NCBI GenBank assembly: GCA_949361645.1
Contig: OX442417.1
Coordinates: 14,001,954-14,065,953, forward strand
DNA: 64,000 bases
Source of the DNA: Spongilla lacustris
Lineage: Eukaryota > Porifera > Demospongiae > Spongillida > Spongillidae
Reading direction: 5' to 3'
Under the pieces are notes generated by a model. That model saw only the letters and a list, made by a program, of their open reading frames with translations. It made no database searches and was not told the origin of the DNA. The position numbers and the translations under genes are program-made. Shown one piece after another: positions 1-63,204 of this stretch. The first letter of the stretch is position 1, and each line of letters begins with the position of its first letter.

Positions 1-854
1 TAAGAAATGAAAATCACACCAATAGCTTCAGAATTCATTGGCATTCTTGCTTCAGTGGTCAAAATGTATCGAGGCTACACTGTATATATCGGTGGTTGTG
101 TTAGCAAATGACGTATATTTAAGCATCCTGTAACAGGACTCAAAAACGATCAAATAGTTTAGAACTTGTTCATATTTTGCTCCAGTACATGTAGCTGTAC
201 ATGTAATCCAATGTGTACGGTCTGGGCACTACACTATTAGTTGTAATTATAATAGTGAAATCGTGGCACGTATCCGGTTTGGGCATTACATGTAGCGCTT
301 ACTCACGGCTGTTTCGAGTGGACAAAAGGCTTATAAATAGAACACAGTGACATTATTTACGGTTCAAGTAAAACATGGCTAGCCGCCATCTCATTAAAAG
401 TTCACCGATTAAAAATGCAAAACGTGTAGCTGTAATGCACATCTTGAAACCATTTCCAACTAGTAAAACTAGTTTGGTTTTTATTTTCACTTAAACGCAT
501 GTCCCAACGCGTAGCAGGACTGCACACTTTGCCACGCGCATATTGTACTCTCCAAATGGCGCGAAAAATGCCATTCATACTGACCTTCGTAGCGGCTTTT
601 TTCCCGCCCTTATAAGTGGTACAATAAGACGCAAAAGTGGAACGATCAACCTTTTTCACGTAAGAATATGCGTTTTACTCGTGGTGCCGCAGTTCCTGCC
701 ACTCACAGAAATACATAATACCACACCATCCACATCGTGAATAATGCGCACCACCTCATAAATAGCCTTAGAATCCTACCACAAATGACGATTGGCGGTG
801 CAAACTTCAAAGAGAAGTCAAAGCCAAGGGCAAACCAACAAAGTAAGAGCCTAC

Positions 855-957
855 ATACCAGCTAGTGCAGGGTCTACACACCAGTGCAGAGCCTACATAC
901 CAGTGCAGAGCCTACATACCAGTGCAGAGCCTACATACCAGTGCAGAGCCTACAGTG
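855..957 (+). repeat. 19-bp tandem repeat
   Basis: About five units of a 19-bp sequence close to ccagtgcagagcctacata. It lies inside the decayed RAG1-like element just upstream of its zinc-motif remnant and reads through in frame with it. Confidence 0.85.
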
Positions 958-2372
958 ATAGTCTATAGCTATTGGTTGCATTTGACATCAGTGTCTCAAC
1001 CAGACCAGGAGGAGATCCACCCACAATTGTTCTGCACATTGTGCCATAAGGCAATGCAGGTGGTGTAAAAGAACCAATACAAGTGCCAAGTGCAGCCATA
1101 TAACTGGTACAGGATTCATGTATTACAAGTACATGTGTAAGCATGTAAACCATTTTACAAGCCATGATGTACCATTTCAAGTAATACGATTGCAAGCTGC
1201 CTCAAAGTCAGTAGCTATCTCCACCTGCTATTATCACCAAAGTACCTATGCCTTCTGTGTTAACAAAATAGATATTGTCAATGGTAGATGCAGTTATGTG
1301 TCCAATGTATTTGGACTGCTACATCAACCAATACAGCTACCATGCCATGCCTAAGTTTGTGGTTGAGTGGATTTGCGTCACTGTACGACTGAAGTGCCCC
1401 TGCTGCTATTCAGTCAACAGTCTTCAGCTAGCCGAGCTCAAACAGCATGTTCAGTTGCTTGGTGACATAGTGATGCATTGTGGGACAGATGTTGTTGCCA
1501 ACACACACCATTGCGGTCAGCACAACAAGCCACAGTTGAAGATAGCAGCACAAGTTGTACACGAACATCTTCAAAACAGCAGTACACAACTAACTGCAGG
1601 AGGAGCAGTAAGTACATACATGCAATGTTACTGTACCAAACTAACACATGGTCTTTTATTCCCAGCCTTTGACTCTTATGTGGATAACACAGCCACGAGC
1701 AGCCATTAGCCAGCTCAGTAAATGCAGCAGGAAGCGCCGGGCTAATGAAATGAGTAGCACTAGGTGCAGAGAGCTCCACTGTCATATTTGAGACTGAACT
1801 GAAATCCTTGGACAGAACGGAGGAGCTTTTGCTGAAGTCTGCAGGGATCACCAAAGGCATAGAGCTAGCACTCAAGGCTGATTTGGGGTTGCCATAGAAT
1901 GCTGAGAAGGTATTAACTCAGTACATATACAATAACACTCATCATGCTATTATTGGCCCCTCCCACAACCCTTTGTGATGCAATTAGTGCTCCTTTATGC
2001 AACTGCATATATGGATGGATCAGGGCCGGTGAGAGCCGTAGTGAGGCCCGGGGTAACACATTATTTGAGGGCCCCATAGGCCCTAAAAATACGAGCACGG
2101 GGGGGGGGGGGGGGTTCCCCCTTGAGATTGGCCCGTCCGGCACCCTTTTATATTTTGGGACCCCTATTATACCTTGGGGCCCGGGGTAAGTAACCCCGCT
2201 TACCCCCCCCCCCCCCCCCCCCTCTCACCGGCCCTGGGGTGGATTTGGATTTCACAGGCCACTTACTCTTTCAGGTGGTTGAAGGAGGCAGGAGTTAGCC
2301 TTGGTACAGCAGGTTCTTTCAAATCACTAGTCGGCAATAACTTGGAGGTAGAATTGACTCCATTTTCAGTTG
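958..2372 (+). pseudogene. RAG1-like transposase remnant (zinc region, RING, linker exons)
   Basis: Four blocks match the intact gene at 13486-16865. (1) 965-1065 keeps the IHPQLFCTLC zinc motif, matching THPPSFCYRC and the IHPxxFCxxC motif of RAG1. (2) 1275-1605 matches the RING and next zinc finger: it retains VKCPCC-like LKCPCC and IVMHC, but the second cysteine of the first RING pair is Tyr and the middle of the ring is shortened. (3) After an intron whose donor (GCA|GTAAGT at about 1605) is at the homologous position, the block from 1664 begins PLTLMWITQPRA against PLTFMRITHPRT in the intact gene; it has several stops. (4) 2275-2370 reads WLKEAGVSLG against CLKASGVSIA. No catalytic DDE block was found. 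It is a pseudogene. Confidence 0.8.
2021..2236. mobile_element. hAT-like MITE with G/C homopolymer runs
   Basis: The ends are inverted repeats CAGGGCCGGTGAGAG and its complement. Flanking 8-bp sequences ggatggat (2013-2020) and gggtggat (2237-2244) match at 7 of 8 bases, as expected for a hAT target duplication. Inside are a run of about 14 G at 2101 and about 19 C at 2204. There is no coding capacity. It inserted into the decayed RAG1-like element. Confidence 0.75.
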
Positions 2373-3168
2373 GCTGTTTCTGAAGGGGGAGAAGAGATCA
2401 AGGGTGGATTGGATTCGTTCCCACCATGCAAAGCCGGATGACCAAGTCCATGCACTCCCAGTTCAACCTTGCAGCTACGTATAAAACCACCCCCAATCCA
2501 TTAGACAGGCATATTACGTGCATTGTGAAGGAACACTACTTAAAGGTCTTTCCTCAAACTCAGAGTGCAACACTTCCTACTTAAGCTTACGTATACGTAG
2601 ATGCAATGTGCGCAATAACAGTAATACCATATTTATTCTCATGTGTCTTCACTAGACAGCACAGCCTAATGGAGCCAAGAGTGTTGGATGGTGGGCTAAA
2701 GACTTAAAATGGCATCGCGATTCAAGTAAGCCAGGTTAAGCTAGGTAGGAGAGGTCAATGGCGTCAAACATCGCGGAAATATTGCAATATTCCAAACGCA
2801 TACTGCATGAGCTAGAAATCGCGGCACCACGAGTTTTATTGAAAATCTAACAGCCAAAACTATCTCAGTTATATTATAAAAGTTTCAGTGTACTTCATAA
2901 GGGCGGAAAAAGTACCAGAGCAATCTGTATCACCTGACCTCAAATAATACACACAGAATTCGCGAGCGTATAACATAGTATCGACAGAATATAAGCGGTA
3001 TTAACTCACATTGTTCAGAGCGTCAGACAATATAGAAGTAGGATCCGAAGTCAAAAGAAGAGTTCAAAACAGTCCTCGTGGTAAAAAGGGAGCATTTTTA
3101 AGCCCATGTTGGTTGCTAAGGTCGTAATTAGGTCCGTTGCTATGAAAAAATTTCGTATCACGGGGCGT
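2373..3168. other. Right half of decayed RAG1-like element, nothing recognised
   Basis: No open reading frame of note and no match to the DDE-bearing exons of the intact relative could be read. This is probably deleted or decayed transposase sequence. Confidence 0.4.
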
Positions 3169-3219
3169 AGCCTTTTTGTCACAGGTTCAATGGGAATGAA
3201 ACAGCCGTGTATACTGTTA

Positions 3220-12487: not shown

Positions 12488-13012
12488 ATGTCTGAGACGG
12501 GGCAAGTAATCGAGCTACTTCGCCAGCAGTTGGACTCTCAGCGAAAACAGATGGAGTCTGAACGAATGCAGATGGAGAAGTTGTTCGAAACACTAGCGGG
12601 AAAACTTTCGGAGCCTACTTCCAAACCGCTTGCGGTGGCAATCCCAAGTTTCGTTCCTTTCGACCCTTCTTCAGAGTTATGGTCTGATTACTGGGCGCGC
12701 TTCTTGACTTTCCTCGGTGCGAATTCAGTTCCAGACGACAAGGCTGCTCAGATATTCCTAACAAATCAGTCCAAAGTCACGTACAAGCTTTTGGGCAACC
12801 TTGCTTTGCAACAGTCCCCGCCCAAAGACGTGAACACGCTCACTCTCGACGAAATCGCGGCTTTCATGAAGACCCAGTTCGACCCTACTAGGTATGTGGT
12901 CCGCGAACGGTTTAGGTTCTGGTCGGAGATGCAGCGCAAGCCCGGGGAATCGATTCAAGAACTGGCTGCCAGGATACGTCATGATGCTGTCAGATGCGAT
13001 TTCCCCTCAATA
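12488..13012 (+). CDS. gag: gag, 5' part (interrupted by transposon)
   Basis: The ATG at 12488 lies shortly after the primer site. The N-terminus is a glutamine-rich helix, followed by a capsid-like region of the Ty3/gypsy retrotransposon gag type (for example SELWSDYWARF and ESIQELAARIRHDA). The native frame is cut at 13012 by the RAG1-like transposon, and the frame running past it to 13057 is only insert sequence. The gag frame resumes from 17320 in register: the insert plus one AATA copy adds no net frameshift at the site. Confidence 0.85.
13009..13012. repeat. Target site duplication AATA (left)
   Basis: AATA directly precedes the transposon end at 13013 and recurs at 17316-17319. Codon phase of gag matches across the two copies. 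Confidence 0.85.
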
Positions 13013-13052
13013 CACAGGTGTTTGCGGCCATATATTTTGTGGACAGTAGGTT
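13013..13052 (+). repeat. Transposon end, 23-spacer signal (3' of transposase)
   Basis: Reading inward: heptamer-like CACAGGT (13013-13019), 23 bases (13020-13042), nonamer-like ACAGTAGGT (13043-13051). The first five bases equal the RAG heptamer consensus CACAGTG; the nonamer-like block shares only ACA at its start with ACAAAAACC. Confidence 0.7.
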
Positions 13053-13485
13053 TATAACCCGAAATATTGAAATGATTACGTATTCCCTTAGCAACGTCCT
13101 AGACAACCAGAGTCGAGAAACGTGAGCCCCCTGTACAAAAACAGGAATTATACCAGCGCCATTTAAAACTTCGAAACAAAAGAAGCATCACCTTTCTACA
13201 TACACTGCGTTTCTCGTGTCACAGTTTTGACGCTACGTCAAGTTATGGCTCCTGAAAGCGGGTAACCCTCGACGTACCTGTCCACTTTGAAGTAAGTTTT
13301 CCACGCTCCCAACCGGTAGAAAGTTTTTATTCAAGTAAATCTTAGAGATAACAGAAGGTACTAACTGGCTCGATTATCTGCTTGTAGCCGCCTTTTTTTG
13401 GGCTAGAGATACGTATTGCTGAAATATAGTGAATTTAACGGTATCAAAATTTTACTCTTTTGGGGGGAGGGATCGCTGCCACGAT

Positions 13486-16400
13486 TTATGGAGCTATTGA
13501 AAGCATGTGCTCCTTCATAATCAAGGACAGTCTTTTGACTGGGTCATATACCGAATGGTACGTACGTTGCAAGGAGTTAAATCTGGCATGGATGGATTCT
13601 GCTCCTTGCTCTCCCAGAAGACCAAATCCAACGTATGTTCTTTTTGCCCATGGCACTGTGTGTTCTTCCAGCATGTGCATTTTTAATGATATAGAGCAGT
13701 CGGGGAAGGAACTCCTAATGTGCTCCATGAGCTGGGCTGTTGTAGTTTCTATTGAATTATGTACAGTTATTTCATACATGTACTTGTACATGCATGCATG
13801 TTAAAAGCGTACCTAGCTCCTTGCATTGTGCCTCTTCAATGAAATTGTTATCATATATTCTGTGACACTGGCCTAGCAGGGTGAAGATGTTTGTAAACTT
13901 CGTGCATGCCTCTGTTGCTGGTGTTATAAGTGCAGGGCACTTAGTTGTTGCAACTTCTACCATGGAGGTGCACAAACGCTTGATGTTTGCTGGCTAAATA
14001 GGGTATGAGTTATAACAACTGAACTAAATTTAGATGATTCTAACCTGTAGTGTCTTGTGGATGTGGTTACCAACAAACACACCACCAAAGTATTGCTGTC
14101 GCTTCACCTTGAAGGATTGGAGGGCTTCATCCAATCCCTTCACAAATGGACCATCATGAAGGGCAAACTCCTTGTTTGTAACTTTGGTGGTCTTAGCTAT
14201 TTCCATTTCCTGTGTTAGGGTGTTATAATCATTTAAATCAGTGTTTTGTTTAGTCCTTACCATTTTCTCCACAGACTGCCTCCTGTCCAGGGCATGCCTG
14301 ATAAGGATCTCCGTAACAGGGCTGTCCTCCCCATATGCCACCACTACGTACGTGACAGCTTCCTCCAAAGCTGCCAAGGACTCTCGGGCTTCAGCCAGCT
14401 TAGCCTTGGCCACCTGCAGCTTATGCAGCTCTTCAGCGTACTTTGTGAATGAGGATGAGCTGCTGCTTTCTTCCTGGTATGTGTACGCCAGCTGCAAGTC
14501 AAACTGGTGGCAAGTGTCCTCCAGCAGCCCGAACATCTTCATGAAGACACCCTGTGTCATATGCAGCCCTGGTATGCACACCTGTAATGTTACGAAGTGC
14601 ACACATTATATTGTGATGCATGCGATAATTGCACACAAATGCCGGTGCATGCATACCTGTGTTATAGGTATGTCAAAGATGGGCTCAGTTAAGCAATTCA
14701 GGAAATGCATCACATGTTTCTTATTTCCACCAGTAGCTACAAATTCCTTGTGGCTTTCAAGGATGCCCTGTAATGTTCTAGGAGGATAGCATCTTCTTTT
14801 TATAGGAGGTAGTTGCATTTCCTCCAGAACAATTTCACAAGATAAGCACGGGTGCTTTCCTGTAACAAAAAAAAAAGCGAATTTTTTTTGGGTGCAATGA
14901 AGTACATTGTACATACCAGTGGCTCCAGATAAGCCATACATCCTGCTTTGGAACTCGCAGTCCCCGCACAGAAACACCCTTATAGTATACCTCCTGTGTG
15001 TTCAGTATTCACTATGCATGTGACTATACACTGTAACTTACTGCCACTTCATTCCCTGTAGCTTTTTGACCTGGTCCCTGTAGCGATCAAGTGCACTGTG
15101 CAGATTTGTGACACTGTCATCGGCAGCAAAGCAACAGAATACACATGTATTGTGTACAGAATTCGGTGCAGGGACATTGACAATTTGGAAGCTCATCTTG
15201 AAGGTGCCTCCTCCCTTGTCACCACCAAGCTTCACCCACACCTCACTTTCTGGGATGAAGCCATTGTGCCACGTAAGCCTTCCGGCTCTGTGCACACATA
15301 CAAATCTTCATCGTCATTGCCATCATCAGTTTCTCTTTACCTATGGTTCTCTTCCAACATCTTCAGAATCTGTTGATTGAGGTCTGGCATGTAGACAAGT
15401 GGAGCAGCACGCAGCTCCTCTCCACCAGAGGCTAGTTTAAATGAAAAAAGAGCCATCTCTCCATGGAGATTGTCACCAATCATCCCACGAGCAACTGTCC
15501 TCATATTTTCTTCACAGGCAATTGACACCCCTGATGCCTTCAAACACCTATGGAGTGTAAGTGATTACTGTGTATGTCATATCTTAAATTACATCATTTA
15601 GTTACCTTCGGAGCACTCGTAGTTTTGCCCATGGTAGTCCAAGGCCAGCTTTAATAGCCAGTGCTTCACCTGCTCCAACTGTGCTCAATAATCCAGCCTC
15701 TTGCAGCAGTGTTTGCCTTTCTGCTGGGGCAAGGTAGTGTAGCTCCCTGCTAAGAAGTGCAGAAGACTCTCCCTGGCTGACTACATCTCGCACCATTTGC
15801 ATTTCCTCACAGCGGCGCTTCATGGTTCTTGCACTTGCTGTCTCAGTAGGGGTACGAGGATGTGTGATACGCATAAATGTGAGTGGCTAAGGAGAAAATA
15901 TGATGTATAAGAAACAATATATGCATGTACATGTATGTTGTACTCAACAGTTCCTCCAGTAGGAATTGTGATCGTTTGAGAGCTGGTGGATGCCAGTGTT
16001 CTGAGCACATGACACGCTGTCTGCACATCAGCGTCTGAAGGTCCAGGTTCTTCTGCACACTTGTGAGTGCTGTACTCACCAGCCCGTATCTCCTTCCCAC
16101 AGGTTTGCTGGCAATGTACCACTATATCCATCAGCAAGGTCTGAATGAGTGGTGGTGCGGGCTTCAGCTGTGAAGGAGCCAAAGGAGTGTCCATGATGCA
16201 GCATGGACACTTGACCTCACTGCAGTTGGAGGCCATGAACCAGTGTACGATGCAGTTTGTGCAGACTAGTGCCCTACATGGCAGCTCCAGTGGTTGGTGC
16301 ACAATTGTCAGGCACAAGGGACACCGAAGTTGGTCCAGTATGTCTGGATTGTTGGTACTGGCAAGTATGTGGTCTTGTACTGAGAAATCTGTCTGCATAG

Positions 16401-16865
16401 GAGGAGCTATTCCACGTATGGCTGCAATAATCTGAGCTGGACTATTGTGGGCTGGTCGGCCTGTTGTGGGTGACATCTTGTGCAGTGGTTTTGGATGACA
16501 TATCTGAATATGATAAGAAATTGGATTCATATACATGTACATGCAGTCAAGTAGATGTATACAAAATTATGAATGTATTTTTATATTACCATGCAGTCAA
16601 CTTCTGTGTGGGCCTTCCACTCAAAAGAAATACTGTTGGGCCCATGTTTGTGGTGTTTATCCATCGTTCGTTTGCACCGATAGCAAAAGGATGGTGGGTG
16701 GGTGCCAATTGTGTCCAGGGAGGTGTTAATACGGAATTTGTAGTGCAAATCATCTGCAAACTGTCTGCAGTTATAGGTTTTCCTTGTCTTTTTGTCTCTA
16801 GCCTCCACTAAGAAGCGGCCACATACTCTGCATAGCTGTTCCACTTTCTTTGCGTGTATCTCCAT
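13486..16865 (-). CDS. RAG1-like transposase, 11 exons, 919 residues
   Basis: Exons (minus strand): 16865-16590, 16503-15949, 15886-15606, 15547-15341, 15287-15042, 14978-14917, 14859-14657, 14581-14261, 14209-14045, 13993-13813, 13748-13486. Every junction is GT-AG, phases agree throughout, and no stop interrupts. Residues 12-91 match the RAG1 N-terminal zinc region (LCRVCG, HPPSFCYRC, EWKAHTEVDC). Residues 153-194 are a RING with RAG1 spacing (C-x2-C-x11-C ... C-x2-C), except that the histidine position is Ala170. C223, C227, H239 and C241 match the RAG1 finger after the RING. Candidate catalytic acids are D463 (GGDKGGG), D528 (LCGDCEF) and E883 (GEQGAES), the last resembling GNES of RAG1. 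A coiled coil lies around 650-690. Expected role: nuclear cut-and-paste transposase; the RING may act as an E3 ligase. Confidence 0.85.
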
Positions 16866-17286
16866 TCTAAAATACTGAATTTATTCATAAAATCTCCTGC
16901 CTTATTTTGGGGTTAAAAAAAAAAGGCGGCTATTTATGAGCGATATGTATATGCTCTCCTATGTGTGCTGATCATTATATTCCTCGCTTACAGATTTCTA
17001 CCGGTTGGTTCGTCCACTCAGACCGCTCAAGTACACCCCATCTTTTCCCGCCAAAGTTACATTGTTGTGGAAACGGGCTGCGCAGAACCATTCATAATAA
17101 ATGTAGTCCTTGTGCAATTATGGCTTATGTATAGCTGTGGTAGAGTGTTTTCATGAGCATTTTCTCTCCTTGGAATGTCATAAGACGAGTATGATATAGG
17201 CTCGCAAAAACTAACATCGTATAATGAGATGCGGCTAGATATTTTTTTGGTGGCTTATACTAAATTACGGTATCGCTTAATTATCC

Positions 17287-17315
17287 AACCTACTGTCCGG
17301 CCGCAAACATCTGTG
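17287..17315 (-). repeat. Transposon end, 12-spacer signal (5' of transposase)
   Basis: Reading inward on the minus strand: CACAGAT (17315-17309), 12 bases (17308-17297), ACAGTAGGT (17296-17288). The block TGTTTGCGGCC next to the heptamer and the block GGACAGTAGGTT are both shared with the other end; that end simply has 11 extra bases between them. Confidence 0.7.
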
Positions 17316-19440
17316 AATAAAGGACCCTCAAGACGAGGCGATGCGCACACGCTTTATGTGTTCGGTGAACAATGAAGCCGTACTGAAGGCCCTATTCAAG
17401 GTGAAGGATGACGAGCTTACATTCGCGAAAGCACTTCAAGTAGCACAGGAGACTGAGGAGGCCGCTAAGGTAGCTAAGGAAACAGTGTATGGGGCTAAAC
17501 AGATACAGCGAAGCCCTAGTCCTTACTCTTCCTCGATCAACCAAGTGCAGTCATCACAGCAGCAATTTTCTCCTAGGCGTCCTCATGCCAGACCAGCAGC
17601 TGGTGGCAAGCCCAAGAGAGATTTCCCCAGAGGAACCTGTCCACGGTGCAGCAAAACGGATCATGGATCTAAGGACTGCCCGTTCAAAGAGACTGTGTGC
17701 AACTACTGTCAGAAGATGGGGCATATTCAAGCAGCCTGTCTGAAGAAGAGGAAGGAGCAGCAGCTGGTCAGAACTATTTCAAAACACTCCATTCAGACTG
17801 TTAAGGTCATTGATGCAATCCCACAAGTGCGGCAACCCCTACAGATCAAAGGCCAGGATTACACCTTCGAGGTGGACACCGGTGCAGGGGACAACTTCTG
17901 TTCAGTGGAGGTGTGGACCAAGATAGGAAAGCCTACTTTGGCACCAGCTTCTTGTCGTTACGAAGTGGCCAATGGACAACCTTTGGCTACATTGGGAACA
18001 TTTCAAACTGTAGTCTCATTGCAAGGAGAGAAACCCAGAAGCAGCAAAATCCAGTTCACTGTCAGCAAGACACCAAGGCTTAACTGCTTGGGACGAGATG
18101 CAATCGTCAAGCTAGGTGTGGATATTCCAGCTCTACTGGGCATACCTCCAACAGTCAAGCAAGTCAAGAGTGAAGCTGTCCTCTCCATTTCTTCACAACC
18201 AGACCTAGTCCTTCAACAGGCCTGTGAGCAGCTTTGCGCGGAATTCCCTGACCTCTTCAAGCCAGAGCTTGGTTGTCTGAAAGACTTCCAGCTGGAGGTC
18301 AAATTCAAGCCGGATGCAAAGCCGGTGTTCTGCAAGCCAAGAGTGGTTCCATTTGCTCTCCTGGACGATTTGAACCAAGCATATGATGCGGGCATTGCTC
18401 GAGGGGTATGGAAGCCGGCTCAATTCAATTCATACGGGACTCCAGTTGTTCCCATTCGGAAATCGTGTACTCCCAGTCAGGCCAAGGCCAAAATTCGTGT
18501 GTGTGGAGACTACTCAGTGTCAGTCAACCCACAGCTGGAACCACATCGCTACCCAATGCACCTACCGGAGGATCTCATGCGCAAGCTGAGTGGGGGCCAT
18601 GGGTACACCAAGATAGACCTTGCTGATGCCTACAATCAAGTCATGCTGGGACCAGAAAGCCAGAAGCGTCTAGCGTTGAGTACACACAGGGGAGTGCTTC
18701 TTCAACTTCGTCTCCCGTTTGGGATCAGTTCTGCACCAGGTTATTTTCAAGAGATAATGGACCAGCTAATAGGCGATCTAGGAGGTGTGGCTAGCTACAT
18801 GGACGACATCTTGGTCAGTGGATCCAATGCAGCGGAACACCTGCAGAACCTACGTGCTCTTCTTCAACGTCTCCAAGACAAAGGACTCCGTTGCCGTAAA
18901 GAGAATTGCCTATTTGCTCAACCCTCAGTCGAGTATTTAGGTTACACACTGTCCAGCAAAGGAGTTGCCAAGGGACGCAAGGCAGATGCAGTGAGGATGA
19001 TGCCACCCCCAGACAATGTCTCCAGCTTACGTTCTTTCCTAGGGTCAATCCAATTCTACAGCAAATTCCTACCAAATCTGGCTACTGTCACTGATCCTCT
19101 GTATCGACTCACCAAGAAGAATGTCCAGTGGGAGTGGGGAGCAGAACAGCAAGCAACCTTTCTAAGTCTCAAGGACTTACTCTGTACGGATACTGTTCTG
19201 GCCTATTTCAACCCTTCACTACCAATCGGGATTTCTTGTGATGCTTCTGAGTGTGGCCTAGGAGCTGTGCTGTTCCACCGCTATCCTGATGGCAGTGAGC
19301 GTCCTATCAGTAATGTTTCCAAAACTCTAACGGACACCCAGAGGAGGTACAGCCAAATTCAGAAAGAGGCTCTGGCCATAGTATTTGCTCTCAAAAAAAA
19401 TTTCACCAGTTCCTGTATGGCAGAAATTTCATTCTGGTGA
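17316..19440 (+). CDS. pol: gag 3' part and pol 5' part (zinc knuckles, protease, RT, RNase H start)
   Basis: The frame resumes after the transposon. Two CCHC zinc knuckles (CPRCSKTDHGSKDC and CNYCQKMGHIQAAC, 17640-17735) bind RNA. The protease has DTGA at about 17875. Reverse transcriptase carries YMDD at 18796-18807. RNase H begins around 19230 with ISCDASECGLGAV. The frame ends early at 19440 because an A8 run (19393-19400) puts it out of register by two bases. The original product would be a gag-pol polyprotein cleaved by its own protease. Confidence 0.9.
19393..19400 (+). other. Frameshift at A8 run in pol
   Basis: Eight consecutive A; the RNase H frame continues on the other side only if the run is two bases shorter. 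This could be a real lesion, a homopolymer error, or less likely a recoding site. Confidence 0.7.
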
Positions 19441-21086
19441 CAGATCACAAACCACTTCTGTCCCTGTTCGGACCCAACAAGGCTACTCCAGTTCTTGCAG
19501 CCAACAGGCTGGCACGTTGGGCACTACTTCTCAACCAATACAGCTATTCCATTGAGTATAGGAAGACTACTGATCATGGAAATGCCGATGCCCTCAGCCG
19601 TCTCCCTTTTGGTCCTGACCCAAGCTTTGATGGAGTGGAAGGTGATGCAGACGTGGACACAGTGTGTGCCATTCGGACCATCAGCCTTCAGCTTAACCCC
19701 ACGGATCCAGGTGTCTTAGCCAAGGAGTCTGCAAAAGACCCAGTACTGGCAAAGGTGATGCTGTTCACACGTGAAGGTTGGTCACCTAAGGCAGAACCTG
19801 AAGATCAAGGAAAGGACTACTCAGTGGAAGATTTCCGCAAAATCTCTGCTTCACTCACAACTGTTCATGGTTGTCTGCTATATGGCTCCAGAGTCATCAT
19901 TCCTCCTAGCCTTCAACCTCAAGTGCTCGAACTCCTGCATTTGGGTCACTTCGGGATGCAGAGAATGAAACAGCTGGCCCGTACTGCTGTCTACTGGCCA
20001 AGGATCGACACGGACATAATGAACCAGTGCCATCGATGTTCAACATGTGCGGAACATCAACACATGCCAGCTAAAGCTCCCAATCACCCCTGGATGGTAC
20101 CAGAAAAACCTTGGAGCAGGCTCCATCTGGATCATGCCATGAACTTCATGGGGACAAACTGGCTAGTTTTGATCGATGCTTATTCTAAGTATCCGTGCAT
20201 CCACCCAGTGAGTTCTACTTCGATCAAGGCGACTACTGAGTTGCTCGAGCAGGACTTCGCTCATTTCGGCTATCCTCACACAGTTGTGACAGATAATGCC
20301 ACTTCCTTCGTATCGGAAGAGTTCCAGGCTTGGTGCAAAGAACGGGGTATCACTCACCTGACTGGTGCTCCATATCATCCGGCAACAAATGGTGCTGCCG
20401 AACGCCTCGTTCAAACCTTCAAGCAATCGCTCACCAAGTCATCTCTCCCTCCACGAGCGGCAGTTCTAGAGTTTCTAATGCAGTATCGCAGGACGCCTCT
20501 TGCATCAGGTTACTCTCCCAGCGAGATTCTGAATGGTCGGCAGATCCGGTGCAAAATTGACGTCCTCCTTCCTTCTCCTGCTCACATTGCCCAGGCAAAA
20601 CAGGCAACAGCAACTTCTAAGTCTCCACCCACTACTTCCCACAGCCAAGTGTCCAGAGTGGCTCACACTTTCAAGGTTGGCGACCCTTGTTATGCCCTGT
20701 ACTGCGGACCTCGGCGAAACTAGGATCCACGTTGGGTACCTGCAGTGGTGACCAAGGTGTTTGGCCCACGAAGTGTTAATGTTCGTGTTTTCCCTCATGG
20801 GGCTACCTGGAGACGTCATATAGAGCAGCTGCAGTACCGCTATGGTTCCAAAGAGGATTCAGACCCTGGAGAGCTTCCGGCCCCTGTGACTTCCTCACAG
20901 GTTTCAGTAGGACCACTACCTTCAAATGAACTCCCACTGGCAGAGTTTGAAACTACTGAACACTTGGACCAAGGAGATCAAGTGCCTCAGCCTGTCAAGC
21001 AAAAGACTTCACGTAACCCCCGACTTCCCACTGGGAATGAGTATGGTCCTCACAACCCTCGACGCAGCACCAGGAACCGGAAGTAG
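19437..21086 (+). CDS. pol: pol 3' part (RNase H end, integrase), one internal stop
   Basis: It continues RNase H (TDHKPLL), then the integrase: an HHCC zinc finger (HLGHFGMQ ... CHRCSTC, 19937-20050) and a DD35E core with D in DAYSKY (about 20177), D in TDNATSF (about 20290) and E in NGAAERL (about 20402). The tail from 20640 is basic and ends at TAG-free sequence until 21086. A TAG at 20721-20723 splits the frame; the same register reopens directly after. No chromodomain is visible. Together with the frameshift this makes the copy non-functional. Confidence 0.88.
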
Positions 21087-47335: not shown

Positions 47336-47677
47336 GGGATCATAATAGTGCCTCCCCTGCTCTTTGGTCTCTACAAACAAGGTGTGGCAGCTTGCTCAGT
47401 ACGGTCGCAGTCTGTCATTATATTGCATATCCAATAGAACTCTTTTCTTGTAATTAAATACACAGCAGTACTAGGTTTATAGGCCTAAAATCCCCCACCT
47501 AAGGATTTGCTGGTAAAGGATGTATGATATGTGGACATGACGTAATGAATGAACATCATGTCATATCACTATCAACCTACGCCGGAATACTTAGTCCAAC
47601 CGCAAAACCGTACTTTATGCAGCTTGATGCTTCTTGCAGCTGCTCTACCTGGAGGGCCGTCATATAGAGCCGAAGCA

Positions 47678-50600
47678 ATGATGATTCAGATAGTACTTGT
47701 TTTATCCGTTCTTGGGAGCTACGTGGTTGTTATGTCCGATGAGGTCAACCTCACCGCTACCATTCCACCTGGCTATGCTCTACAGGACTACCTATGCAGC
47801 GGACCGCTCAATTACATTAAGTCCAATACGACTATTGTGTTGGATGATGGAGAGCATCGCATATCTTCAGGACCGCCCTGCGATACTTCCAGTGAAGGCA
47901 ACATTACGATAACGGGGTCTTCGATGAAAAGCACCACAGTTCATTGTGAGGGAGATGGAATATATGTAATGTTACGATTCAAGTCAATACAAAAGTTTAC
48001 TATAGAGAGAATGACATTCATTAGCTGTGGCGTAGAGCTGGTATCGATCGAAAATACTGTTATCACTAACTGCACATTTCAGAGCAGTTCAGCGATATCG
48101 TTACAATCAAGTAGCAACATTGACATCACCAGTTGTGTATTTCAGAACAACAGTGCTACTTCTGGTGGTGGTGCTGTGAGGTTGATTGGATCACAAGGCA
48201 ATGCTAGCATCACAAACTGCACATTTCAGAACAACAGTGCTAATCTTGGTGCTGCTGTGTGGTTGTATGAATCAACAAGCAGTGTTAGCATCACCTACTG
48301 CACATTTCAGAACAACAGTGCTACTATTGGTATGGTCACAATCAAGTACCAACATTGACATCACAAGTTGTGTATTTCAGAACAACAGTGCTACTGATGG
48401 TGGTGGTGGTGCTGTGTCGTTGTATGGACCAACAGGCAATATTGTCATTACAAGCTGCACATTTCAGAACAGTGCTACTATTGATAGCGGCGGTGCTCTG
48501 TGGTTGTATGCACCAAAAGGCGATGTTAGCATCACAAACTGCACATTTCAAAACAACAGTGCTACTTATGTTGGTGGGTCTGTATTATTAGATGGATCAC
48601 AAGGCAATGTTAGCATAACAAACTGGACATTTCAGAACAACAGTGCTACTTATGTTGGTGGGGCTGTTATGTTGGAAGGATCAACAGGCGATGTTAGCAT
48701 CACATACTGCACATTTACAGAAAACACAGCAGACTATGGAGCAGCAGTTTATGTTACAAATGAAGCAAAGGTTGGGCACCTCCTTCTCCAGGATATGGTT
48801 ATTAAAGATAACCACGGCTCTGGGGGAGGGGCCATTTTCTTTGATGGAGTGAAGGTGGACATCTTTGGAAATACCCCCACAGGGAGTCAGTTCTCATCTA
48901 ACTCTGCCCAAGGGGCCATTCAAGGACACAATGGTCTACTGCAGCTGCATGGTAACATCACATTCACAGAGAACAGAGGAGTGAATGGAGGGGCCATAAG
49001 CCTGTCTAACAATGTTCCACTGCTCTTCTATGAGGGGTGTAGAGTGGAATTTTACAGAAATGTAGCAACTGGATTTGGTGGTGCTATCTACAATGATTGG
49101 GGTAAAAAAGACACTAAACGTTCACATCTTTGTATCATACGCTTCAGTTTTAAAAAAGATTTTATAATGTTTCTTCAGCCCAACAGTTTCTCCATTACCT
49201 TCACTGATAACCATGCACAGCAAGGTGGTCATGCTGTATATGCCACACCCATTTATAATTGCGCTAATAAATGCCTTTTTTACTTGATTGATGATCTTAA
49301 TTGTAACAATTTTGATTTTTCTGACATGACTGATTATTTCACCATTACTTCGTCACCAGGACACATCAATGACCTCCAAGTACTCACTTTTCCAACACAT
49401 GTCCACTTGTGTGGCTGCAGTGACCCTAAGTTGTGCAATGTCACAAGTCAGTACCAAGGAAAGGTTACCACATATCCTGGTGGGACTGTGAGACTTTATG
49501 TTACCTCAGTAGGTGATGGAAACAATCTATCACCCAGTGTAGTTTACACAAAGGTTGATACCAGTGGTATTACCTCTCAAAACATAGCACTTGGACCACG
49601 GCAGGAGGCTCAGTGGATAGGAACAGTATGTGGTACAATAGAGTACCAAATTTATGGACCTGAAATGGCTTCATTTAAACTACTTTTGTCTAATAATCCT
49701 GATAAGTCACCAGCTGTCGTTGAGGTGGAGCTGTTACCATGTGAGCCAGGGTTCACACTATCTTCTACTGGTGTGATAAAGTGTGACTGTTCACTGTTCT
49801 TCACATCACATGGAGTGGTCTGTGATACATCAGATGGTACTGTGACTAGAAATAATAAAAATAGCTGGATTGGTGTGTACAATAACACTCTTCCAGCACT
49901 GGCTTCAACCTGTCCTTTGGACTACTGCAATAGTACCATAAATAAGCTGTCTCTAGGTCGGCCTGGGGACTTGTGCAATGAAGGGCGTACTGGCATTCTT
50001 TGTGGCCATTGCCATGGTAATCATAGTGTGATATTTGGTTCTTCCAAGTGCCAGGTGTGCACAGATATGTGGCTGATCACACTTGTGATGTTTGCAGTGC
50101 TGGGTGTCTTACTGGTGGCAGCACTGTTCTTCCTCAACCTCACTGTAACACAAGGCACACTCTATGGGCTCATCTTCTATGCCAACATCATTCAAGTCAA
50201 TACTTCAATATTTTTCAGCCAACCCATTTTAAACCCTATGAAGGTGATTGTGTCCTTTGTGAACCTTGACCTTGGGCTCCCTCTGTGTTTCTATGATGGT
50301 ATGGATGATGCTGACAAGGCTGGCCTTCAGTTTGTGTTCCCAGCCTACCTAATCATCCTCACCATGACAGTCATTGTGCTCTGCCACTACTGTCTTCAGA
50401 GATCTCCAACCTCCTCCACTAATTCCTGTTGGTATAGATTTCCCATCATCATAAGAGAAAGAGCAGTTGGTGTCCTATCTTCTCTCATCTACTTGTCATA
50501 TTCCAAATTGTTGAGAACTGTGATTGATGTTCTCACATATTCCACAGTCCACCTGCCCACTGGTGACATGTATTTGTGGTTCTATGATGGAAATGTGGAA

Positions 50601-51377
50601 TACCTTCATGGGAAGCATACTGTATTGTTTGTTGTTGCCATGGTGACATGTACCCTGTTCCTCCTCCCCTACATCTTTGCCCTCACTTTCATTCCAATCA
50701 TTGAACGGTACAGTGAACACAACAGACTGTTCAACTATCTCCACAAGAAGGCCAGTCAGATGAAACCAATGAATGATGCCCACTATGCCCCCTATAAGGG
50801 GGAGTGGCGATGGTGGCTGGGAGCAAGGCTTTGGCTTCTAGTTGTGATGTACAGTTTAAATCCAGTGTATAGTTCTGACAAGCCATCTCTGCTTCTGTCC
50901 ATCCAGGCTACTGTGGTGATCTTGTTCACCATAGTACAGGCAAGAATAGAGCCATTTGGACAGTCACATCAACAGACAGATAGATGCACCAGATATACCA
51001 TCTTCTGCAACCAATTGTACAATTGTCTTGACCTGTTTTACCTCCTCAACTATATTGCACTAGCTATGTCGATGTCTTACATTCTAGAGCAGAGTTCAGA
51101 CCAAGCACAGATGACTGTAGTATCTGTTGGTGTTTTGGTGGGTCTCTATGTAGTGGTGTTGATGGTGACTGTCTTGTACCATCTCATTGTGGTCATCCTC
51201 AAGGCTTGCAAGATGTATGAAAGAGCCAGAGAGAAGATAAATGGATTATTTGAAAGGAAAAGATATGAATTAATGATTCCTATAGCTACAGAGCTGGATG
51301 ACCCCACCACCAATACTGTCAGCACCACCACTGTGACAGTCGACTATGGTCTGAGGGAACCACTGTGTGAAGATTAA
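47678..51377 (+). CDS. Beta-helix membrane protein with multi-pass C-terminus, one frameshift
   Basis: The ATG at 47678 is preferred because MMIQIVLVLSVLGSYVVVMS is a good signal peptide; an upstream ATG at 47549 is in frame. The ectodomain has many NCTFQNNSAT-like repeats (right-handed beta-helix, similar to polymorphic outer-membrane protein repeats), rich in N-glycosylation sites, then a Cys-rich module (GDLCNEGRTGILCGHC, about 49965-50015). Then come about eight membrane spans from 50070 (WLITLVMFAVLGVLLVAALF) to 51210, with a TRP-like overall layout, and a cytoplasmic tail ending at 51375-51377. The frame shifts at about 48325-48345 inside one repeat. Similar intronless genes form large families in sponges and cnidarians. 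Ligand and function are unknown; a surface receptor or channel role is inference. Confidence 0.7.
48320..48350 (+). other. Frameshift in beta-helix gene
   Basis: The upstream frame ends at 48358 just after this point while the downstream frame is open from before it. Neighbouring repeats carry a glycine-rich GGGAV turn here, and this repeat appears to have lost part of it, so a small deletion in one repeat unit is likely. Confidence 0.7.
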
Positions 51378-59692: not shown

Positions 59693-59934
59693 GTCATGGA
59701 TGGACCACTGGGTGGTAGATGGCCTTGTACCTGGTGGGAGGTGGGCGTGTATATTGTAGTGTATCAGCATGACAGATGTTATGTCGTTATGTGCATGTGT
59801 ATAGAGTGATAGAGTAGCTGGGATTGCTGTATGCTAATAAGAACGAATCCAGATTCATCTGTCAATCTATCGGGTACATGTAGGCATACAATGTATATGA
59901 TTGGATGTGGGCGTGCATATGATGGGTAATGGCA

Positions 59935-62715
59935 TAGGAGGTAGGTGTGTGTGCATGATGGGAGGTAGGTGTGTGCATGATGGGAGGTATAGGTGTGTGC
60001 AGGATGGGAGGTAGGTGTGTGCATGATGGGAGGTAGGTGTGTGCATGATGGGAGGTAGGTGTGTGCATGATGGGAGGTATAGGTGTGTGCATGATGGGAG
60101 GTAGGTGTGTGCAGGATGGGAGGTAGATGTGTGCATGATGGGAGGTGTGTGCATGATGAGAGGTAGGTGCGTGCATGATGGGAGGTAGGTGTGTGCATGA
60201 TGGGAGGTATAGGTGTGTGCATGATGGGAGGTAGGTGTGTGCAGGATGGGAGGTAGATGTATGCATGATGGGAGGTAGGTGTGTGCATGATGGGAGGTAT
60301 AGGTGTGTGCATGATGGGAGGTAGGTGTGTGCATGATGGGAGGTGTAGGTGTGTGCATAGGTGTGTGCATGATGGGAGGTAGGTGTGTGCATGATGGGAG
60401 GTAGGTGTGTGCATGATGGGAGGTAGGTGTGTGCATGATGGGAGGTGTGTGCATGATGGGAGGTGTGTGCATGATGGGAGGTAGGTGTGTGCATGATGGG
60501 AGGTGTGTGTGCAGGATGGGAGGTAGGTGTGTGCATGATGGGAGGTGTGTGTTCATGATGGGAGGTGGGTTTGTGCATGATGGGAGGTAAACGTAGGTGT
60601 GTGTGCATGATAGGAGGGAGGTGTGTGCATGATGGGAGGTAGGTGTGTGCATGATGGGAGGTATAGGTGTGTGCAGGATGGGAGGTGTGTGCATGATGGG
60701 AGGTAGGTGTGTGCATGATGGGAGGTAGGTGTGTGCATGATGGGAGGTGTAGGTGCGTGCATGATGGGAGGTGTGTGTGTGCATGATGGGAGGTAGGTGC
60801 GTGCATGATGGGAGGTATGTGCATGATGGGAGGTAGGTGTGTGTATGATGGGAGGTGTGTGTGCATGATTGGAGGTAGGTGTGTGCATGATGGGAGGTAG
60901 GTGCGTGCATGATGGGAGGTAGGTGTGTGCATGATGGGAGGTATAGGTGTGTGCATGATGGGAGGTAGGTGTGTGCATGATGGGATGTAGGTGTGTGCAT
61001 GATGGGAGGTAGGTGTGTGCATGATGGGAGGTAGGTGTGTGCATGATGGGAGGTGTAGGTGTGTGCATAGGTGTGTGCATGATGGGAGGTAGGTGTGTGC
61101 ATGATGGGATGTAGGTGTGTGCATGATGGGAGGTAGGTGTGTGCATGATGGGAGGTGTGTGCATGATGGGAGGTGTGTGCATGATGGGAGGTAGGTGTGT
61201 GCATGATGGGAGGTGTGTGTGCAGGATGGGAGGTAGGTGTGTGCACGATGGGAGGTAGGTGTGTGCATGATGGGAGGTGTGTGTGCATGATGGGAGGTGG
61301 GTGTGTGCATGATGGGAGGTAAACGTAGGTGTGTGTGCATGATGGGAGGGAGGTGTGTGCATGATGGGAGGTATGTGTGTGCATGATGGGAGGTGTGTGC
61401 ATGATGGGAGGTAGGTGTGTGTATGATGGGAGGTGTGTGTGCATGATTGGAGGTAGGTGTGTGCATGATGGGAGGTAGGTGTGTGCATGATGGGAGGTAT
61501 GTGCATGATGGGAGGTAGGTGTGTGCATGATGGGAGGTAGGTGTGTGCATGATGGGAGGTAGGTGTGTGCATGATGGGAGGTATAGGTGTGTGCATGATG
61601 GGAGGTGTGTGTGTGCATGATGGAAGGTGTGTGTGCATGGTGGAAGGTGTGTGATGTGTGCATGATGGGAGGTGTGTGTGCAGGATGGGAGGTAGGTGTG
61701 TGCATGATAGGTGTGTGCATGATGGGAGGTAGGTGTGTGCATGATGGGAGGTGTGTGTGCAGGATGGGAGGTAGGTGTGTGCATGATAGGTGTGTGCATG
61801 ATGGGAGGTAGGTGTGTGCATGATGGGAGGTATAGGTGTGTGCAGGATGGGAGGTGTGTGCATGATGGGAGGTATGTGTGTGCATGATGGGAGGTAGGTG
61901 TGTGCATGATGGGAGGTAGGTGTGTGCATGATGGGAGGTAGGTGTGTGCATGATGGGAGGTATAGGTGTGTGCATGATGGGAGGTGTGTGTGTGCATGAT
62001 GGAAGGTGTGTGTGCATGATGGAAGGTGTCTGTGTGTGCATGATGGGAGGTAGGTGTGTGCATGATGGGAGGTGTGTGTGTGCATGATGGAAGGTGTGTG
62101 TGCATGATGGAAGGTGTCTGTGTGTGCATGATGGGAGGTAGGTGTGTGCATGATGGGAGGTAGGTGAGTGCATGATGGGAGGTAGGTGTGTGCATGATGG
62201 AAGGTAGGTGTGTGCATGATGGAAGGTGTGTGTGCATGATGGAAGGTGTCTGTGTGTGCATGATGGTAGGTAGGTGTGTGCATGATGGGAGGTATGTGTG
62301 TGCATGATGGAAGGTGTGTGTGCATGATGGAAGGTGTCTGTGTGTGCATGATGGGAGGTAGGTGTGTGCATGATGGGAGGTAGGTGTGTGCATGATGGGA
62401 GGTGTGTGCATGATGGGAGGTAGGTGTGTGCATGATGGGAGGTAGGTGTGTGCATGATGGAAGGTAGGTGTGTGCATGATGGGAGGTAGGTGTGTGCATG
62501 ATGGAAGGTAGGTGTGTGCATGATGGGAGGTATAGGTGTGTGCAGGATGGGAGGTAGGTGTGTGCATGATGGGAGGTAGGTGTGTGCATGATGGGAGGTA
62601 GGTGTGTGCATGATGGGAGGTAGGTGTGTGCATGATGGGAGGTGTGTGCATGATGGGAGGTAGGTGTGTGCATGATGGGAGGTGTGTGCATGATGGGAGG
62701 TAGGTGTGTGCATGA
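59935..62715. repeat. 2.8-kb minisatellite (gcatgatgggaggtaggtgtgt)
   Basis: About 130 units of 18-24 bp with variants (ggaggt, ggaaggt, insert ata). All three minus-strand frames stay open over long distances (970, 929 and 712 codons), because the unit has no stop word in any minus-strand frame. There is no sign of selection for coding. Confidence 0.97.
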
Positions 62716-63204
62716 TAGCTAAGCGGTAATCAGTTATTAGTAAACAGCCTGACAAGTTTCTACAAACAAATAAGAACAATCATTGCAATAGGAGCACACA
62801 AATGAAATCGGATCGCCTAGTAAAGCAGTGTCTAACTTTCAGTAAAACTAGCACAAACATCACACAGGTAAAATCCACGGGGATGACCTCCTACACCTAA
62901 CCATGCACATCAGAGGTGAGGTGATGCAATGTGAAGGCACCCTATAATCACATCATGCTCTGCATTTGTAGGCAGTTTCTTCTTGTGGTACATGTACACG
63001 TGTATACAAAGCCTTCAATATTAAATACATGCTTAGAAAAAAAAAATCACTCTGAGGTATCTGTCTTTGAACCCATGCCACCCCTTCCTGTTTGGTGATT
63101 ATTTAAAAAAAATTCCATAAGTACAAAAGGTCAATGGCTGTTACAAGCACTGTGTAATTGGTGTGGTCAATATGAAAACCCCTGCATTTGGCAGTTGCAT
63201 CACC
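62716..63204. repeat. Segmental duplicate of 52885-53377
   Basis: Near-identical flank of the array, non-coding. Confidence 0.8.

Follow-up and report, generated by a model that had tools for sequence, protein, structure and literature searches.

The origin of the 12/23 rule of antibody genes is an open question, and a transposon of the sponge Spongilla lacustris puts it in a specific form: can the two ends of an element with a single gene be built, across many copies and families, as one short and one long bipartite signal? The element, at positions 13013-17315, lies in a stretch of 64,000 nucleotides (nt) that we analysed as a whole (hereafter the window; assembly GCA_949361645.1, contig OX442417.1, positions 14,001,954 to 14,065,953), and an earlier sequence-only reading had likened its ends to recombination signal sequences (RSS). 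Our results revealed that a 12/23-like end architecture is conserved across transposon families in this genome. Specifically, the layout is one of bipartite signals in two spacer classes, one helical turn apart, with one of each class per pair. Judged from its geometry, this conserved architecture probably amounts to a pairing rule.

Two bipartite ends that differ by 11 bp

Read inward, the gene-5' end of the element consists of CACAGAT, 12 nt and ACAGTAGGT, and the gene-3' end of CACAGGT, 23 nt and the same ACAGTAGGT, which is letter for letter what the sequence-only reading had claimed; its 5' and 3' follow the transposase gene, which lies on the minus strand. The element and its ends are as follows (window coordinates; the letters of both ends were read directly).

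13013..17315, minus strand: DNA transposon of the Chapaev type (4303 bp), lying within a retrotransposon-like stretch
13009..13012, no strand: target-site duplication AATA, left copy, matching the right copy
13013..13019, plus strand: outer box CACAGGT, gene-3' (long) end
13020..13042, plus strand: 23-nt spacer of the long end, including the 11-nt insert ATATATTTTGT at 13030-13040
13043..13051, plus strand: inner block (block 2) ACAGTAGGT of the long end
17288..17296, minus strand: inner block (block 2) ACAGTAGGT of the short end
17297..17308, minus strand: 12-nt spacer of the short end
17309..17315, minus strand: outer box CACAGAT, gene-5' (short) end
17316..17319, no strand: target-site duplication AATA, right copy, matching the left copy

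In full, the gene-5' end reads CACAGATGTTTGCGGCC-GGACAGTAGGTT and the gene-3' end CACAGGTGTTTGCGGCC-ATATATTTTGT-GGACAGTAGGTT, such that the extra length of the long end is the 11-nt insert ATATATTTTGT, placed between a 17-nt outer block and GGACAGTAGGTT. The outer 17 nt of the element are inverted repeats with one mismatch (the inverted-repeat listing gives a 25-nt arm, of which 8 nt are flank). The figures 12 and 23 presuppose a 7-nt outer box and a block 2 that starts at ACA, a register that is free by 1-2 nt; the 11-bp difference between the ends is register-independent. On both points we agree with the earlier reading, which had declared its register a choice and the difference not.

Copies of the element across the genome

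Recurrence of the asymmetry in other copies had been set beforehand as the test of this geometry, and in the 249 Mb of genome searched for copies the asymmetry was kept, with no variable or equal distances in the main family among the matches listed. Searches with the left and right ends, in which 40 of 349 and 40 of 128 candidates, respectively, were scored and 30 loci of each cut out, recovered ends 94-96% identical to those of the window element. The long form was kept in 30/30 left ends, and the short form in all 16 right ends to which a left partner could be assigned. Exact 4-bp duplications flanked 13 of these 16 end pairs, the other three were without one, and duplications of 5 bp were found in 0/16.

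Genome-wide, the pattern CACAGNTGTTTGCGGC-N{0,30}-ACAGWAGGTT had 145 matches and its reversed control none, and the bipartite pattern is thus not due to chance. Among the 100 matches listed (for this and the patterns below, the first 100 in contig order, with many listed ends lacking a listed partner), and with the gap free to vary from 0 to 30, the spacer was 12 in 47, 23 in 53, and of another length in none. Eighty of these ends formed 40 convergent pairs within 9 kb, each of which (40/40) joined a spacer of 12 to one of 23, while 20 ends were unpaired. Because 38 of the 40 pairs measure 1.6-2.8 kb, these are presumably non-autonomous; the window copy, at 4.3 kb, and a 5.3-kb copy make up the rest.

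A constant shift in diverged families

A protein search of the genome with the transposase, in which 49 of 2520 candidates were scored, yielded 128 stretches that are 31-98% identical, and a search with PF06918, a domain of the same protein, yielded 116. Both ends were found in 12 of the 20 copies whose end regions were fetched and, among 10 further copies, both ends in five, one end in four, and none in one. The target duplication was part of the score that chose the ends in the 20-copy set, and the duplication matches in the 20-copy and 10-copy sets are therefore partly due to selection; for F3c, the second-ranked end candidate was used, being equal to F3a.

From these searches, both ends are available for ten distinct families, namely the window's own, F1 (with F6, F8, and G8), F2, F3, F4, F5, G2, G7, G9, and G10. 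The catalytic exon is 65-85% identical among the families, and over the stretches from the protein search F1-F5 share 31-76% identity with the protein of the window element. While block and spacer sequences vary among the ten, the shift of the inner block at the gene-3' end stays within 10-12 bp, at 11 in eight families (the window's own, F1-F5, G2, and G7), 10 in G9 (as read from a GGACA/TGACA block), and 12 in G10. Further, polarity is constant, the short end being gene-5' and the long end gene-3' in 10/10 families. G10, an apparent counter-example with a shift of only 4, was rejected as such, the fetched copy being a rare form with an 8-bp deletion and the shift of 12 that of the common form; G10-type pairs at C5:566595-571146 and C5:612767-617318 enclose PF06918 matches. 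For G1, the most diverged family, the 5' (short) end was not found, and all nine long ends have spacer 23. The G1 long ends also recur along one strand at intervals of ~3.7-3.9 kb, as though the element were arrayed in tandem, at C9:6834987-6846281 and C24:1666835-1674461 (G000).

Three wider patterns were searched, the spacer being measured between the 7-nt box and ACA or AMA. CACGGCTGTTTC-N-GACAAAA had 215 matches (control, 0), and the 100 listed had spacers of 11 in 36, 23 in 60, 15 in three, and 16 in one; 22 of the 24 pairs among the matches listed were 11+23 and two were 11+15. For CACGGCTGTT-N-GGACA, with 918 matches (control, 5), 57 listed ends fell at 11-13, two at 15, and 41 at 21-23, and the pairs were short plus long in 23/23. 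CACGGRTGTT-N-GGAMAYW matched 354 times (control, 9), with 33 listed ends at 12, five at 15-16, 59 at 22-24, and three at 29-33, and with listed pairs of 12+23 in 17 of 18 cases and of 12+16 in the other. In the order given, spacers of 11-13 or 21-24 account for 96, 98, and 92 of 100 listed ends. Pooled over all four patterns, 102 of the 105 pairs among the matches listed are short plus long, three include a spacer of 15-16, and none joins like to like; the CACGGCTGTTTC and CACGGCTGTT patterns overlap partly, with the consequence that single ends are not additive, and the pairs do not overlap.

Hence, the proposal that the asymmetric pair resembles the 12/23 rule finds support in 100/100 listed ends and 40/40 pairs of the main family and in nine further diverged families. 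The freedom of the register would be in keeping with a chance likeness or an artefact of one copy; however, 145 matches against an empty control, and a shift that is equal within 1 bp in ten families, leave such an explanation with a negligible probability, and we reject it.

The two ends also changed in concert. In nine families, G10 being excluded, the two ends of one family agree at 61 of 72 positions over their inner 8 nt, compared with 46.5 under shuffled partners (p 2e-5), and at 85 of 90 over the outer ten nt, compared with 78.7 (p 4e-4). As the inner blocks match more within than between families, both ends of a family change together with their distance fixed, and the within-family match is what would be expected if one binding protein governs both ends. 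The 11-nt inserts are ~50% alike between families, and their length is constant.

A second element in the window

The window holds one further element of this kind.

304..3209, plus strand: second, decayed element, G10 type, with the short end (spacer 11) at 304 and the long end (spacer 23) at 3209

Its transposase remnants, at 1160-1764 (30-45% identity, E 4e-12), lie on the plus strand, which makes the short end gene-5' and the long end gene-3'. Its flanks (tact/tata) show no clean 4-bp duplication. At 7/9 positions its inner blocks, ACAAAAGGC and ACAAAAAGG, agree with the RSS nonamer ACAAAAACC, a likeness to which we give no statistical weight. Runs of poly-G/poly-C lie within it near window positions 2100-2220.

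The transposase and its kin

One gene fills the main element, and the predicted 924-residue protein has no internal stops.

13486..16865, minus strand: transposase gene, 11 exons, 924 amino acids; splice sites predicted, set by reading frame and GT/AG
16865-16590, 16503-15949, 15886-15606, 15547-15341, 15287-15042, 14993-14917, minus strand: exons 1-6
14859-14657, 14581-14261, 14209-14045, 13993-13813, 13748-13486, minus strand: exons 7-11
16590..16865, minus strand: exon 1, Chapa / RAG1 importin-binding-type zinc region (PF12560, E 7e-7 for the open reading frame (ORF), 1.7e-5 for the whole protein)
15949..16503, minus strand: exon 2, GRP motif, RING finger, then zinc finger (domain and motif matches)
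15042..15287, minus strand: exon 5, PF06918 (DUF1280), with the presumed first catalytic aspartate D463 in GGDKGGG
14657..14993, minus strand: exons 6-7, D533 (presumably the second catalytic aspartate) and C(2)C at 552-555
13486..13748, minus strand: exon 11, H(4)H at 862-867 and the glutamate of GEQGAES

PF12560 (RAG1 importin binding) matches residues 1-98 at 24.9 bits (cut-off 23.3) and PF06918 matches residues 297-517, while the Pfam RING, at residues 153-194, lies below its cut-off (16.6 vs 30 bits). RAG1 is the best PDB sequence match of the homologue P0004 (E 1.5e-4), whose single domains match RAG1 weakly in the zinc region (E 0.89; chain positions 150-213) and at E 0.012 in the RING, and a profile built from 31 homologues again has it as best PDB match, aligned over RING and zinc finger (E 3e-9). 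Between the zinc region and the RING, the homologues long enough to cover this part carry a GR[GP] motif, which we take to resemble the GRPR nonamer motif of RAG1, as a lead only. Hence, by domain content, the predicted transposase falls within the wider kin of RAG1. Among 8000 scored candidates, 47 protein relatives (31-78% identical) were found, of which one is from the starfish Asterias rubens and 46 bear Ephydatia muelleri names or Em gene codes, the latter presumably also denoting this freshwater sponge.

By motif alone, D463, D533, C552-C555, H862-H867, and GEQGAES fit a DDE, C(2)C, and H(3-4)H pattern; in the CMCT clade, a C(2)C and an H(3-4)H motif separate the second D of the DDE core from its E (PMC12730594). 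Given its Chapa zinc region, RING, and DDE core, as recognized in the predicted protein, we assign the element to cut-and-paste DNA transposons of the Chapaev type. Chapaev elements have CAC...GTG ends and 4-bp duplications, and both occur here (13/16 pairs with exactly 4 bp). Among transposable elements, Chapa and RING are encoded only in the Chapaev superfamily, with RING after Chapa in two subgroups, as stated in PMC4411706. On this comparison we provisionally file the element as Chapaev-type with a 12/23-rule layout.

Some of the same features might instead mark a true RAG-like or Transib transposon, whose ends would be direct kin of the RSS: the ends begin with CAC and are spaced 12/23, the zinc region and RING are RAG1-like, and the inner blocks of the second element approach the nonamer. 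However, the main-family inner block matches ACAAAAACC at 4/9 positions, there is no RAG1 core match, and the duplications are of 4 bp, against the 5 bp that are almost always or invariably found in RAGL, RAG, and Transib (PMC7204232). The RAG2 domain PF03089 had no match in the genome, and control genomes were equally silent. On the 4-bp duplications and the lack of a RAG2 partner in these searches, we reject membership in RAG, RAGL, or Transib, which we consider very improbable.

A pairing rule or an inherited layout

The explanation that we think likely is that a cut-and-paste, Chapaev-type transposase acts on bipartite 12/23 ends, bridging a short and a long end and favoring the pairing of unlike ends. 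Each end has two parts, an outer box whose initial CAC lies at the cleavage point, followed 12 bp (gene-5') or 23 bp (gene-3') inward by an inner block. One domain of the transposase would grip the outer box for cleavage and another the inner block, and the two inner blocks, differing by about one helical turn, would lie on the same face of the helix. Because of this shared face, a two-fold transposase dimer could span a short end and a long end together, much in the way that RAG1/2 brings a 12RSS and a 23RSS together, and such bridging would favor the joining of both different ends of one element.

Alternatively, the one-turn difference may have been inherited from a common ancestor, with ends that are recognized singly and an asymmetry that serves polarity or regulation (for example, the gene-5' end as promoter) in the absence of any pairing rule. 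All of the families are related by descent and share one polarity, the sequence further inward is also unlike between the two ends, and internal deletion suffices to produce non-autonomous copies with one short and one long end. Nevertheless, the length has been held at 11 +/- 1 though both insert and inner block change, and lengths outside 11-13 and 21-24 are rare among the matches listed. We regard a layout that is solely inherited as possible but unlikely.

Several observations weigh against the pairing rule and the kinship with RAG1 that accompanies it. First, the conserved asymmetry is possibly such an inherited layout with another purpose, and the lack of like-to-like pairs is weaker evidence than it would otherwise be, because internally deleted, non-autonomous copies retain both ends anyway. 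Second, the insert of the long spacer is not free sequence, since ATTGAAA recurs within it in many families; ATTGAAA may be a third contact, missing from the short end. Third, ends were incompletely resolved in 8/20 and 5/10 fetched copies, including the most diverged family, G1, and in G9 the automatic scan ranked a shift of 2 best (8/10) and the shift of 10 second (7/10). Fourth, the RING match is not specific, many other RING proteins following RAG1 both in the P0004 search and, from 7e-7, in the 31-homologue profile, and no sequence match to RAG1 extended to the catalytic core, all being confined to the N-terminal zinc, RING, and zinc-finger regions. Finally, spacers of 15-16 occur in 11/400 and of 29-33 in 3/400 listed ends of the four patterns, and certain shortened ends are found in identical form at two loci, so that the spacing is perhaps not strictly fixed.

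The spacer-15 long ends that are identical at two loci each (C2:15051372 and C4:11816675; C2:10557446 and C2:10618948; G000) have arisen either through transposition of elements whose spacer was reduced or through segmental duplication, and offer a naturally occurring check on the strictness of the spacing.

Surroundings of the element

Directly after the element, positions 17341-20723 hold retrotransposon-like ORFs with protease, reverse transcriptase, RNase H, and integrase domains, and the element appears to sit within a Ty3-like retrotransposon. On its other side, the ORF at 12488-13057 has no clear Pfam match. Elsewhere in the window, 47549-51377 contains long ORFs with right-handed beta-helix and Chlam_PMP-type repeats, and 59867-62779 a 970-codon minus-strand ORF that has no Pfam match at E 0.001 and is overlapped by other long frames. 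A search of a phage collection gave no match.

Comparison with known systems

The sponge families present a 12/23 layout in a transposase group related to RAG1, in hundreds of ends and ten families, with one protein and many copies. Since there are one protein, many copies, and mostly exact target duplications, the origin of the 12/23 rule becomes experimentally testable, and the sponge transposon offers a simple system for studying how a two-fold transposase would handle two unequal ends. With considerable doubt, we entertain the further idea that a 12/23-type pairing rule predates RAG, in that the common ancestor of the Chapaev, Transib, and RAG transposases had bipartite ends whose spacers differed by one turn, which RAG1 kept and most Transibs and RAGL lost or altered. 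If true, the sponge families would be transposons of high copy number that follow the rule with a single protein and no RAG2. According to PMC8355894, 12/23 ends are missing from invertebrate RAG-like transposons.

Within Chapaev, the subgroups with Chapa and RING likewise have Chapa, then RING, then the DDE core (Kapitonov and Koonin 2015, PMC4411706). That account names Chapaev from lancelet and sea anemone genomes, and its available text does not mention a 12/23 end layout; nor did we find a report of one in Chapaev in the literature searched, a search that did not extend to Repbase and most subscription papers. Transibs are the nearest in end geometry in the sense that Transib5 of Drosophila melanogaster and Transib2, N1, N2, and N3 of Anopheles gambiae also have spacers near 12 and near 23 and a heptamer that begins with CAC (PMC8355894). 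Such asymmetry is found in few Transibs (PMC8355894), most Transib families having symmetric ends (PMC8289069), and, unlike in the sponge element, the Transib transposase is canonical and lacks Chapa and RING (PMC4411706).

RAG1/RAG2 with their 12RSS and 23RSS likewise use a box that begins with CAC and an inner block from ACA at 12 or 23 bp, and RAG1 likewise has an N-terminal zinc region and a RING. Unlike the sponge element, they form a recombinase with RAG2 rather than a transposon, and RAG-mediated transposition leaves 5-bp duplications. ProtoRAG of amphioxus shares the bipartite, asymmetric ends, and according to PMC8289069 its spacer lengths matter and unlike ends are preferred in assays; it differs in having spacers of 27/31, in encoding RAG1L and RAG2L, and in its 5-bp duplications. 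Outside this kin, the P element of Drosophila spaces its terminal repeat and inner site by 9 and 21 bp, about one turn apart, and has been likened to the 12/23 RSS for it, although its transposase belongs to another family, with a THAP DNA-binding domain, and makes 8-bp duplications (PMC7776569).

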